A stretch of DNA of 64,000 nt from Planctomycetota bacterium (GTDB lineage Bacteria > Planctomycetota > Phycisphaerae > Phycisphaerales > UBA5793): contig CAUJHZ010000035.1 in the NCBI GenBank assembly GCA_963205185.1, forward strand, positions 1-64,000, written 5' to 3'. Shown piece after piece: positions 33,249-44,190 of this stretch. Every line of letters starts with the position of its first letter. The stretch's first letter is position 1. Under the pieces are notes generated by a model that saw only the letters and a list, made by a program, of their open reading frames with translations, searched no databases and was not told the origin of the DNA. Both the position numbers and the translations under genes were made by a program.

Positions 33249-34946
33249 TCAGTGAATGAACCGCATGGCGCCGAAATTGGGTACGAATCGAACCGCGCCT
33301 TCGCGCACGCCTTCGGGCGAGGGGAAGTAGACGAAGAACGCTTTGCCGAGCAGCAGTTTGCGATTGACCACGCCCGGCGCATCGTCGATTTCCTGGGCGA
33401 TCCACGGAGCGGGGTTGCCCCACAGCCGGCCGTCGAGGCTGGCCGGGCTGTTGTCACCGCAGCAGAAGTATTGATCTTCGTCGAGAAGCAGCAGCGCAGT
33501 TGGATGCGTGGCCAGGGCAGGCTGAGAGCCACCGTGTTCGTTGGAAGGCCGGTAGTAGAGGTCTCGATCGAGTTGGACGCGGTGCAGCGTGACGGGTGAT
33601 CCGGCAAAGCGCCACTCCAGCCGAAGCGGCCTGGGCTGGTGCTCGGCGGACACGTACTGGTTGCTGCTGCCATCCTGCGCGGCCTGTGCCCCCGACAAGC
33701 CCGTGGCAAACAGCAGGCGCTCCGACGGATGCCAGTCATACGTCGCCTGGGCGATGCGCTGCCCGTCGATCCACAGCCACAGGGCCTGATCGACGTGCCA
33801 GAACTCGACGCTGGTCGGCCGGCCGGCGGGCGCGAAACCGTCGATCTGCTCGTCGGCGAGCACCACCCACGAAGCGGCGCCGTCCTGCGGCCGCATGCGC
33901 AACTGCACATTTGTCGGCGTGATCACGGCTTCAAATTCGTGTCCGCGACACTCGAGGTGAATCGTCGATTCCAGTCCGTCGGCGTCGGGCGCGATCATCC
34001 CGGCGAGGCGGATATCCGAGACATTGAGCGGCTGACTCACACGATCATCCTCGACCGGCTCGTTGTACGCCACGCGGTCGGTGACGGCCCGGCTCGGAGC
34101 GAACGCGAGTGGGGCGGGCGATGGCGAATCGGCCCGATAGGAGCGCCGGTTTGCCACGTCCCAGCCCTCGCCGGACCAGGGCGGCAGCCAGCCGCCGCGC
34201 AGACGATCGGGATCGATGGGAATGAACTCGCTGTGGTACACGGGCTGCCAGACGTGGCGCTGCACGTGCTCAGGCTTTCGCCGCACCTCGAACCACTCGG
34301 AGGCCAGCGCCCCGTCTTCGCGAATCAGTTCGTGCAGGAATTCGGCGGCCTGCTCGCGAGTGGCGTCGGCGGCGAGCCCGGCGCTGCGCAGTTTCTCGAT
34401 CGCATCGGTCACGGAGAACACGTCGCCGTCGGCGAGCCAGATCGCCTCGCTGGGCAGACCGATGAGTCGTTTGATGTAATTTTGTGTTGGATCCGTGGGG
34501 TTCTTGAAGACCACGACGTCAAATCGAGTGGGATCAAAGAACGAATAGAGATACTTGAGCACGAGGATGCGGTCGCCCATCCGCGTACGGCGATTGGAGA
34601 TCACGATCTCATCGGCCCGGTTGCTCATGAGCATCGGGTCGGTGAGCACATACGGCGATTGGCCGCCGAGCACCGGCCCGGCCTGGTTGTTGCCGGCGTT
34701 GGAATCGGAGCCGTTCGGGCCGACGGTGTAGTTGTACCCGCTGTCGGGGGCGCGGACGGCGGCGTGGGCGCCCAGCAGCGTCGGCGCCATCGAGCCGGTC
34801 GGGATGACGAACGCCTCGACGACAAAGCCGCGAAAGGTGAACGCGAGGATAAACGCGATGAGCAGCGACTGGAGCGTGTCGATGACCGACAGATCCTCGC
34901 GGTCGTGTTCTCCCGCCGCCTTGTCGGTGTCGTCAGTGTGGGGCAC
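33249..34946 (-). CDS. lepB: Signal peptidase I with large insertion
   Basis: This is a 565-residue membrane protease that removes signal peptides of secreted proteins. A membrane helix lies at about 25-45, followed at once by box B, IPTGSMAPTLLG, with nucleophile Ser52. Box D holds Lys159 in NYIKRLIGLP, and the last box CCGDNSPASLDGRLWG lies at about 492-507. Most bacterial enzymes have about 200-350 residues; here roughly 330 residues separate the Lys region from the last box and form an extra outer domain with several beta strands. Enlarged forms occur in planctomycetes. It serves the many secreted proteins of this region. Confidence 0.92.
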   Translation of the reverse strand: MPHTDDTDKAAGEHDREDLSVIDTLQSLLIAFILAFTFRGFVVEAFVIPTGSMAPTLLGAHAAVRAPDSGYNYTVGPNGSDSNAGNNQAGPVLGGQSPYVLTDPMLMSNRADEIVISNRRTRMGDRILVLKYLYSFFDPTRFDVVVFKNPTDPTQNYIKRLIGLPSEAIWLADGDVFSVTDAIEKLRSAGLAADATREQAAEFLHELIREDGALASEWFEVRRKPEHVQRHVWQPVYHSEFIPIDPDRLRGGWLPPWSGEGWDVANRRSYRADSPSPAPLAFAPSRAVTDRVAYNEPVEDDRVSQPLNVSDIRLAGMIAPDADGLESTIHLECRGHEFEAVITPTNVQLRMRPQDGAASWVVLADEQIDGFAPAGRPTSVEFWHVDQALWLWIDGQRIAQATYDWHPSERLLFATGLSGAQAAQDGSSNQYVSAEHQPRPLRLEWRFAGSPVTLHRVQLDRDLYYRPSNEHGGSQPALATHPTALLLLDEDQYFCCGDNSPASLDGRLWGNPAPWIAQEIDDAPGVVNRKLLLGKAFFVYFPSPEGVREGAVRFVPNFGAMRFIH

Positions 34947-40868: not shown

Positions 40869-40896
40869 ACGCCGCACGCCAATCCTGGCGCAATGA

Positions 40897-40930
40897 AAAG
40901 CCCCCGCCGAAGCGATTCGGCGGGGGCTTT
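40897..40930. terminator. Bidirectional terminator between subtilase and the selW operon
   Basis: A perfect 14-base stem (40897-40910 with 40917-40930) has a six-base loop. The arms start with AAAG and end with CTTT, so both strands get a short U-tract. It lies 28 bases past the subtilase stop and 22 bases past the selenoprotein stop, which supports a real gene end on the minus strand. Confidence 0.88.
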
Positions 40931-40952: not shown

Positions 40953-41177
40953 CTACGCGTAGGAACCCAACGCGTCGAGCAGTTTCGCGTGGTCGGGAAA
41001 CTCGCCCGTCTCGTGCTTGCTGTAAATGAGTTTGCCGTTCACGGTAACGTCAAAGACGCCGCCTGAACCTTCGATCAACTCGGCCTTGGCACCGAATCGA
41101 TTCCTGATTTCGTCCGCCAGACCGGCGGCTCGGGGGCGGTAGTTTCACATACCGCAGTACTTGATGGAAACCTTCAC
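40953..41177 (-). CDS. SelW/Rdx family selenoprotein, in-frame TGA read as selenocysteine
   Basis: Read from GTG at 41177, this gene encodes 74 residues with one TGA at codon 11 (41145-41147). Around it stands KYCGMUNYRPRAA, the CxxU redox motif of the SelW/Rdx family in its usual place after the first beta strand. After the TGA the frame continues with family features: LADEIRNRFGAKAELIEGSG, then GGVFDVTVNGKLIYSKHETG and FPDHAKLL, ending TAG. AGGAG lies six bases before the GTG. A hairpin with a GGUCU loop follows the TGA (41114-41128). The family has a thioredoxin-like fold and is thought to act in thiol redox. It ends the panB-to-map run. A Cys form would have TGC here; a simple nonsense mutation fits less well. 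Confidence 0.88.
41114..41128 (-). promoter_or_regulatory. Bacterial SECIS-like hairpin after the TGA
   Basis: On the minus strand, 21 bases after the TGA, CCGCC-GGTCT-GGCGG forms a five-base-pair stem with the loop GGUCU. The E. coli fdhF SECIS element, as I recall it, also presents GGUCU in its apical loop at a similar distance (about 18 bases) from the UGA, where SelB binds. The lower part of the element is not clearly paired here. Confidence 0.75.
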
Positions 41178-41183
41178 GTGCTT

Positions 41184-41188
41184 CTCCT
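41184..41188 (-). promoter_or_regulatory. Ribosome binding site of the selenoprotein gene
   Basis: AGGAG on the minus strand lies six bases before the GTG at 41177. It supports a real start in a frame that otherwise looks broken by the TGA ten codons later. Confidence 0.7.
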
Positions 41189-41285: not shown

Positions 41286-42092
41286 TCAGCCGACGATCAT
41301 CGGCAGTTCTTCGAGGCCCGCCGTGAGCACGCGCGGGCCCTGCTCGGTAACCAGCACGTCGTGCTCGTAGTGCACGCTCAGTGAGCCGTCGGCGGTGCGG
41401 ATGGGCCACTGCCGCGGCTTTTGCTGCATGCGGCTCGTGCCCGCGGCGATGATCGGCTCGACGGCGAGCAGCAGCGGGGGCTTGATGCGGTACTGCGCAT
41501 CGGGCCAATCGCCGGGATAGGCGGGTATCGCATTGGCCACGTGCGGCTCGGTATGCAGGCTGCGGCCGTAGCCATGCCCGCCCAGGCCGGTGACGCAATG
41601 AAAGCCGTACTCACTCTCGACGCACTGCTGCACCGTGCGGGCCCAGCGGGTAAGTGGGTAGCCGGGCTGCAACTGCTCGACGCCCCGCCGCAGGGCCTCG
41701 ATCCCGCACTCGCACAGGCGGATGGCTTCGTCGCTGCCCTGTTCGATGATGTAGGTCCAGGCGGCGTCGCCGATCCAGCCGTGGTAGACCACGCCGATGT
41801 CGATGGAAATCACGTCGCCGCGCTTGAGCGGCTCGAGCGACATGCCCGCGGTGCCGTGGACGACGACATCGTTGACGCTCAGGCAGGCGTGCGACGGAAA
41901 CGCGGGGTACCTGCCGGTGCGATAGCCGAGAAAAGCACTGCGCGACCCGAGCCGCGCCAGCGTCTCGCCGACGAGTCGATCGATCTCCCCCAGCGTCATC
42001 CCCGCGCGAAGCCGAGGCGCGAGGAACTGGTGCGTTTCGACGACGAGTTCCGCGGCCCGCGTCGCGTCGGCAATGTCCTGCTCGCGCAGCAT
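41286..42092 (-). CDS. map: Methionine aminopeptidase, type I
   Basis: This 268-residue enzyme removes the N-terminal Met from new proteins. All metal and catalytic residues are in place: His79 (VVHG), Asp98 and Asp109 (SIDIGVVYHGWIGDAAWTY), His173 (GLGGHGYGR), His180, Glu212 (AVEPII) and Glu243 (YEHDVLV). The Met at 42092 gives the usual N-terminus; the open frame further upstream is shadow of the preceding gene. It follows the gene at 42133 by 40 bases in the minus-strand run, with the selenoprotein gene 108 bases downstream. Confidence 0.95.
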   Translation of the reverse strand: MLREQDIADATRAAELVVETHQFLAPRLRAGMTLGEIDRLVGETLARLGSRSAFLGYRTGRYPAFPSHACLSVNDVVVHGTAGMSLEPLKRGDVISIDIGVVYHGWIGDAAWTYIIEQGSDEAIRLCECGIEALRRGVEQLQPGYPLTRWARTVQQCVESEYGFHCVTGLGGHGYGRSLHTEPHVANAIPAYPGDWPDAQYRIKPPLLLAVEPIIAAGTSRMQQKPRQWPIRTADGSLSVHYEHDVLVTEQGPRVLTAGLEELPMIVG

Positions 42093-42132
42093 CGTGTGCG
42101 ATGGTAGCGACCGCGGGGCGCCAGGCGCACAC

Positions 42133-44190
42133 TCAGGGTCGAGCGCGGCGGACGAGGTCGCGCGCATACGGCTCTTTGGCCTCGGCTTCGAATTCATCGA
42201 GCATCGCGTTGATCTGATCGCGCCGGCCCAGAGCTTCCATGACCGGCGCCAGTCGTACCGCATCGACGTAGCCCTTGGGCGTGCGGATGTGCTCGCGCAG
42301 CAGCATCAGGTCAGCCGGTTTGTCAATCGTTTGCAGCGAGGGGATCCACTTGAGCCAGAGCAGATCCTGCTGTTCGGCGGTGACCTGCGAGAGCGGGATC
42401 TGCTCGAAAGCGTGCATGAGCGCGGGCCCGTCGCCTTTGCGGAAGATGACTCCCAGCGCCAGTGCAATGGCGTCCGCAGAAGCCTTGTCCTTGAGTCGCT
42501 GCTCGTAGAGGCTCAGCGCCACGTCGTCGAGACCGAGCAGGTTGAGCGTGCGCAGCACCGGCGTCCAGTCGCCGCCAGTCGTGGCTCCGTCCGTTGCTTC
42601 CCGCAGCACTTCGCGCAGATTCAGGCCTTCGATCGGCCGCGCGTCGGGCGCCAGGCGCGGAAGTTCGGGCAGCAGGATCATGAGCGGATCGCCAATGGTC
42701 GTCACGCGCCATGGCGCCTGCTCCCACACCCGCGCCGCGACAAGGAATGGAACTGCTGAACGCAGCCGGTCCACGAGCAGTTCCGGCGGCACGAAGGCGC
42801 TCAGCGTCGGTTCCTGCACGCTGCCGACGTACGCGTACGCCCCGCGCTCGAGCCAGCGACCGGCGAGGGTGTTGCGATTCTCAGGCGCCAGCGCCGACCA
42901 TGAATGCACAAAGTGCACCGCCGCGGGCGTGTTGAGGATCGGCATGTCGTGCATGAACACGCGCGTCTCGTCGGCCGCTTCGAACCAGTTCTGATTGCCG
43001 CTGGTGTTGACGAGAATGAGGTCGGCATGCAGGCCGCTGGGCGCGAGTCGCTCCCACGCGGCGGCGGTGCTCGCCGGACTCGAGATCTGCCGCACATCGA
43101 GCCCCGCTTCGCGCAGGCGCGCGGCCGGCTGGTCCATCGCATAGCGCGACCAGGGCGAACCTCCGCCGTAGGCATCAAAGAGCAGCGCCCTGTCGTGCTC
43201 GAGAAAGATCGAAGACATCGCCATGTACGTCGTCCGCGTCGTCGGCCCGAAGATCCAGCCCGCAATCGCCCAGCGCTTCAACCCCGTGCGCGCCAGCCCG
43301 TCGGTGACGGCGTTGTGCGAGCGGCCCGACGCGTCGCTCGCATCGGCGTATCGATTGCCAAGTTGGCGCGCGAGGGTGATCGTGTCGATCGCATCACCGA
43401 GCGCGTCGTATGGATAACCGGTCGAAGCCACGCAGGACTCGACCGCAGCGCTGAGCCGGGGCCAGTCTTCCGCGGAGACCACCTGGTTGGCATGCCCGAA
43501 TCGCTCATCGAGAAACGTGATCGGCTGGCCGCGATCGGCCGCCAGCGCCAGCGCCGCCGGCCACGCCTCGTCCTTGACCGAAGTGATGACGACGCCTGGC
43601 GGCGTCCACTGCACGGCGGCGAACCGATCCTTCATGTTGTCGGCCGTCGGCTCGTCCGCCTCTGCGCCGGTGCTCCAGGCGCGCGAAACCATGCGGCGCA
43701 TCTGCTCCTGCAGCGCTTCGGGCGGAGGAAGGGGGTGTCGCGTGGGCTGCTTGCGGACCACCTCGGCCGGCTTGAAGCGCCGAATGAACATCGGCGCATA
43801 CTGATCATCTTCAAAGAGCACAGGCCAGCGGCCGAGCAGACTCCACTCCGAAATCGCTTCCAGGTAGGTGGCCTCATCAGGCACGAGCACCACGCGATCG
43901 ATCGTCGGCACCTTCGAGCGCACCATCGCCACGCGCAGGCCCGGCCGCACGGGCCAGGGGTAATCTTCGATCGTTCGCCCGGGCTCCTGCGCCTGTTCAC
44001 TCTGCTCCGGCGGCGCCTTCGTCGGCGACTGGGCCTCGCCAGTCTTCACCGGCGGCTGAGTCGGCGCCTGAGTCGATTCGTCACTCGAGGCGTCCGAACG
44101 CGGGGCCGGGTTTTCGCGCCCGCACGCGCTGCACAGCGACGCCAGGGTCAGCACAATCACCGGTGCGAAATGACGAATGGGAAATGCCAT
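42133..44190 (-). CDS. Large secreted protein with gingipain-like C-terminal region
   Basis: This 685-residue protein has a leader whose end LASLCSAC may be an imperfect lipobox, then a Pro/Gln/Glu-rich linker to about residue 75. The middle region (about 85-500) ends with VHFVHSWSALAPENR, ERGAYAYVGSVQEPTLSAFV, PFLVAARVWEQAPWRVTTIG and DPL, which resembles the end of peptidase C25 (gingipain) domains. The expected Cys after a hydrophobic strand is not seen, so it may be inactive. The last 180 residues are helical, like TPR repeats. The role is unknown. It lies 42 bases after the glycerate kinase gene. Confidence 0.6.
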   Translation of the reverse strand: MAFPIRHFAPVIVLTLASLCSACGRENPAPRSDASSDESTQAPTQPPVKTGEAQSPTKAPPEQSEQAQEPGRTIEDYPWPVRPGLRVAMVRSKVPTIDRVVLVPDEATYLEAISEWSLLGRWPVLFEDDQYAPMFIRRFKPAEVVRKQPTRHPLPPPEALQEQMRRMVSRAWSTGAEADEPTADNMKDRFAAVQWTPPGVVITSVKDEAWPAALALAADRGQPITFLDERFGHANQVVSAEDWPRLSAAVESCVASTGYPYDALGDAIDTITLARQLGNRYADASDASGRSHNAVTDGLARTGLKRWAIAGWIFGPTTRTTYMAMSSIFLEHDRALLFDAYGGGSPWSRYAMDQPAARLREAGLDVRQISSPASTAAAWERLAPSGLHADLILVNTSGNQNWFEAADETRVFMHDMPILNTPAAVHFVHSWSALAPENRNTLAGRWLERGAYAYVGSVQEPTLSAFVPPELLVDRLRSAVPFLVAARVWEQAPWRVTTIGDPLMILLPELPRLAPDARPIEGLNLREVLREATDGATTGGDWTPVLRTLNLLGLDDVALSLYEQRLKDKASADAIALALGVIFRKGDGPALMHAFEQIPLSQVTAEQQDLLWLKWIPSLQTIDKPADLMLLREHIRTPKGYVDAVRLAPVMEALGRRDQINAMLDEFEAEAKEPYARDLVRRARP

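Follow-up and report, generated by a model that had tools for sequence, protein, structure and literature searches.

The selW-like gene and its surroundings

The window, meaning the whole stretch of 64,000 nucleotides that was analysed, carries on its minus strand a short selW-like gene interrupted by an in-frame TGA. The features of the locus are as follows.

40953..41177, minus strand: selW-like gene, predicted 74-residue Rdx-family selenoprotein (GTG start, Sec-UGA at codon 11, TAG stop; Pfam Rdx and NCBIfam matches)
41145..41147, minus strand: in-frame UGA, predicted to be read as selenocysteine, at the second redox position of CGMU (CxxU); TGA conserved in homologues
41184..41188, minus strand: AGGAG ribosome-binding site, 6 nt 5' of the GTG
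40896..40927, minus strand: Rho-independent terminator, 12 bp, GCCCCCGCCGAA-TCGC-TTCGGCGGGGGC-TTTT
41114..41128, minus strand: putative bSECIS upper hairpin, CCGCC-GGTCT-GGCGG, 5 bp with a 5-nt loop, covariation, -9.5 kcal/mol
41286..42263, minus strand: M24 metallopeptidase gene (PF00557, 1.1e-34), the upstream co-directional neighbour

Direct reading of the minus strand gave GTG at 41177-41175, TGA at 41147-41145 (codon 11) and TAG at 40955-40953. With the TGA translated as U, the frame yielded VKVSIKYCGM-U-NYRPRAAGLADEIRNRFGAKAELIEGSGGVFDVTVNGKLIYSKHETGEFPDHAKLLDALGSYA, a product of 74 residues with a single TGA. The CxxU redox motif consists of C8-G-M-U11 within YCGMUNYRPRAA and is conserved in relatives. 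The coordinates, frame, length and motif were thus as described in an earlier, sequence-only reading of this DNA. That reading had also noted a ribosome site and a strong terminator, and both were found: AGGAG precedes the GTG by 6 nt, and the stop codon is followed by a perfect hairpin of 12 bp (40927-40900) and then TTTT. In the relatives L009-L011, AAGGAG is located at a similar distance from the start, and G+C-rich hairpins resembling the window terminator follow the stop codon. The GTG start is supported because L009 and L011 have ATG at this position. A sigma-70 consensus promoter was not found for the gene, a negative result of little weight in this phylum, and all matches in an Rfam scan of the gene region were below gathering scores. 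It is plausible that standard gene callers truncate or skip the gene.

Read-through TGA codons were also sought across the whole window by codon usage; of only four candidates, the selW-like gene ranked second. The top candidate, at window position 33251 on the minus strand, consists of two same-phase stretches split by a TGA, the second of which starts MARPVIGITADADD; this TGA probably separates two adjacent genes in one frame.

The genes around the selW-like gene encode the M24 peptidase, a subtilase, a glycerate kinase and a trypsin/PDZ protease, and the convergent subtilase gene sits beyond the selW terminator. These neighbours do not point to a common pathway, and the M24 peptidase is not known to belong to the selenium system. 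An ORF of 685 residues at 42133-44190 on the minus strand begins with a lipoprotein-like signal (LASLCSACG) and has no Pfam match at 1e-5.

Rdx family membership and conservation of the TGA codon

The query for profile searches was the read-through product with its Sec replaced by Cys. It matched Pfam Rdx (PF10262) with an E value of 2.6e-21 and 76.1 bits (cut-off 22.6) over residues 2-69 in one continuous stretch, and NCBIfam TIGR02174 with 62.5 bits (cut-off 34.2). NCBIfam NF041051 (SelTWH_Campy) gave 90.9 bits, above its 88-bit equivalog cut-off; the name of this model refers to Campylobacter-type proteins, whereas the window gene is planctomycete. A full Rdx-type (SelT/SelW/SelH) domain, as first proposed from the letters of the sequence, is therefore recognised by the Pfam model and both NCBIfam models. 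The PDB relatives by sequence included selenoprotein W (2NPB) as well as bacterial SelW-like proteins, and Cys was aligned with U in the two bacterial SelW-like PDB sequences shown.

Homologues were collected from 84,980 genomes with six patterns. None of the six patterns had TGA at position 11 and one had Cys, so that TGA was not favoured by the search. It returned 59 loci; L067 was judged on inspection not to be a SelW homologue and was left out. In all 58 remaining homologues, TGA is the codon aligned with position 11. According to their record titles, these belong to about six phyla, the taxa being Planctomycetota, Gammaproteobacteria, Deltaproteobacteria, Chloroflexota, Acidobacteriota, Actinomycetota and Thermodesulfovibrionia. 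The sequence-only reading had argued that a random stop would not be expected at the second redox codon; the Rdx E value and the unanimous TGA go far beyond chance. In a phylum sample of 246 genomes, 97 had a match, and nearly all matches held one TGA. Among the stop-free matches that were read, a Cys form was found in G004 (L118), a genome without selA, and another (L122) in a genome that also holds a Sec copy. Two second Rdx copies, L119 (G148:C182) and L120 (G133:C221), have Gly (GGC) replacing Sec (CVPGNY and CEVGNY), and their genomes also hold a Sec copy.

The gene was then compared with its closest relatives. The dN/dS ratio was 0.17 against L009 (dN 0.109, dS 0.627), 0.23 against L010 (dN 0.125, dS 0.554) and 0.18 against L011 (dN 0.169, dS 0.943), each with a third-position excess. 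These codon-like substitution patterns indicate that the selW-like gene is under purifying selection.

A candidate bSECIS hairpin and the selenium machinery

Published rules for bacterial bSECIS elements give an apical loop of 3-9 nt that has G in its first two positions, a stem of 4-16 bp, a distance of 16-37 nt from the UGA and an MFE of at most -7.5 (PMC13188914). The window hairpin agrees with all of them in stem, loop, G, distance and energy; its loop, GGTCT, starts 21 nt past the UGA and has G at positions 1 and 2. The minimum-energy fold of the 54 nt past the UGA in the window was a different structure, and the hairpin was therefore tested by register and covariation. The register was fixed (positions 20-24 with 30-34 past the UGA) and applied to 47 representatives with no more than 85% identity across 54 nt. 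As a result, 90.2% of cells were paired, compared with 81.3 +/- 1.2% when synonymous codons were shuffled per column; none of 1000 shuffles reached the observed value, which is to be read as support and not as a probability because the shuffle keeps amino acids but not relatedness. Slid registers gave 17-63% of cells paired. The pair 21-33 was seen as C-G, G-C, G-U and U-A, mostly via synonymous third positions, and the loops AGUUU, GGUCU, AGUCU, AGCGC and GGGCU all have G at the second position. The hairpin was degraded in non-Sec homologues, with two of five pairs in the Cys form L118 and three of five in both Gly forms. These results support the assignment of the hairpin as a putative bSECIS element, a feature that the sequence-only reading had not mentioned.

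The window's own genome is a 76-contig draft, 97.4% complete. It contains a tRNA-Sec with a tca anticodon (68.2 bits), selA (523.9 bits), selB (353.5 bits) and selD (347.9 bits). Hence selA, selB, selC and selD, the genes that the sequence-only reading had said should be sought in the same genome, were all present; they form a single cluster, selD-selB-selA-tRNA-Sec with selD first (G000:C45:5986-10645). The selD gene (L123) itself has an in-frame TGA in CAG-U-AGK, which we take to be the catalytic Cys/Sec site. Other selenoproteins were looked for in a partial search of the genome: five matches to molybdopterin oxidoreductases lacked an in-frame TGA, and two AhpC/TSA matches flagged with one TGA had no convincing Sec motif on inspection.

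Within the class, selA was found in 57 of 59 genomes with a selW-like gene and in 48 of 239 without it. The corresponding numbers in the phylum sample were 87 of 97 and 78 of 149. A strong selA match was missing in ten of the 97 SelW-positive genomes: G004, which carries the Cys form, and others with TGA that are incomplete drafts. Only few genomes of the order have the selW-like gene or selA, and the trait is therefore patchy. Full Sec machinery and selenoproteins have been described in Planctomycetes (PMC4807772).

Probable selenocysteine insertion, alternatives and relation to known SelW-like proteins

The conserved TGA, the sel cluster and the covarying hairpin uphold the claim of a SelW/Rdx selenoprotein with a recoded TGA. 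We consider it nearly certain, judging from sequence evidence, that the gene encodes a genuine bacterial SelW-like selenoprotein with SelB/bSECIS-dependent Sec insertion, a predicted thiol/selenol oxidoreductase. Ribosomes would start at the GTG at 41177, and SelA would make Sec-tRNA from Ser-tRNA-Sec with selenophosphate from SelD. SelB on the bSECIS, inside the coding region just 3' of the UGA, would deliver Sec-tRNA-Sec at 41147-41145, and translation past the UGA would run to the TAG. Sec would thus be inserted at this codon, and the expected product is a small Rdx protein with a thioredoxin-like fold, in which C8 and U11 probably form a thiol/selenol redox centre. The oxidoreductase activity is predicted by analogy with the family.

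Three other explanations were weighed against this one. Only one base lies between TGA and TGC or TGT, and the genome is a draft of many contigs, so that an interrupted Cys-type Rdx gene was considered, with TGC changed to TGA by mutation or misread in sequencing; however, the same-codon TGA in 58 of 58 homologues from several phyla is decisive against such a pseudogene, and purifying selection, the complete sel machinery and the bSECIS covariation also contradict it, which makes it extremely improbable. Translation of UGA as Trp or Gly is known from some bacteria, and the codon might stand for another residue (Trp, for instance, as in code 4) or be passed by general readthrough. Yet ordinary genes here end in TGA, such as that of the M24 peptidase at 41286, the solved relatives have Cys at the UGA site, and the Sec tRNA with the tca anticodon is present; this explanation has hardly any likelihood. 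Nor is there much more than a negligible chance that the UGA closes a leader peptide of 10 codons and that a separate, independent ORF follows it. Leader peptides of such size exist, but the first strand and the first motif Cys precede the TGA, all relatives conserve them in register, and the Rdx profile is continuous across residues 2-69.

As a SelW-like selenoprotein, the window gene belongs to a family whose CxxU motif and usual Sec form were described in 2005-2008 (PMC1088965, PMC1794560, PMC2398784). SelW-like CxxU proteins rank with the most common bacterial selenoproteins known and are well described, and a further member is therefore of low surprise. Bacterial SelW-like selenoproteins share with it the Rdx domain (PF10262) and CxxU with Sec second (PMC9312934, table; PMC2398784; PMC1794560), a bSECIS immediately past the UGA, and the prevalence of the Sec form, Cys homologues being few in bacteria that use Sec. 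There is no difference of substance; the window gene is planctomycete, starts with GTG and has CGMU. Cys-type Rdx proteins (2FA8, 2OJL, 2P0G; YCTQCNW-type motif) have the same domain with Cys aligned at the UGA. They carry CxxC followed by CNWLLRA, whereas the window branch has UNYxPxA, and the bSECIS hairpin was absent in the single planctomycete Cys example examined. What is added to the known family is a well-supported planctomycete member with a covarying bSECIS, and no new mechanism; it also illustrates that a selenoprotein can be found from raw sequence by its motif.

Cys replacements are nearly absent from the UNYxPxA branch, and a 2006 study already remarked that SelW-like proteins have hardly any Cys homologues in organisms that use Sec (PMC1794560). 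The Sec-type UNYxPxA Rdx branch might be an almost obligate-Sec planctomycete lineage. Where Sec is lost within it, second copies with Gly (CxxG) would arise instead of Cys ones, which would point to a task that Cys is unable to perform; we regard this idea as rather unlikely. A separate observation concerns L011 (WYBR01000113.1), which is titled as Vicinamibacteraceae isolate PLA1; its SelW gene is 73% identical and has a planctomycete-like terminator. This record is possibly mislabelled or from a mixed bin, or the gene may have been transferred.
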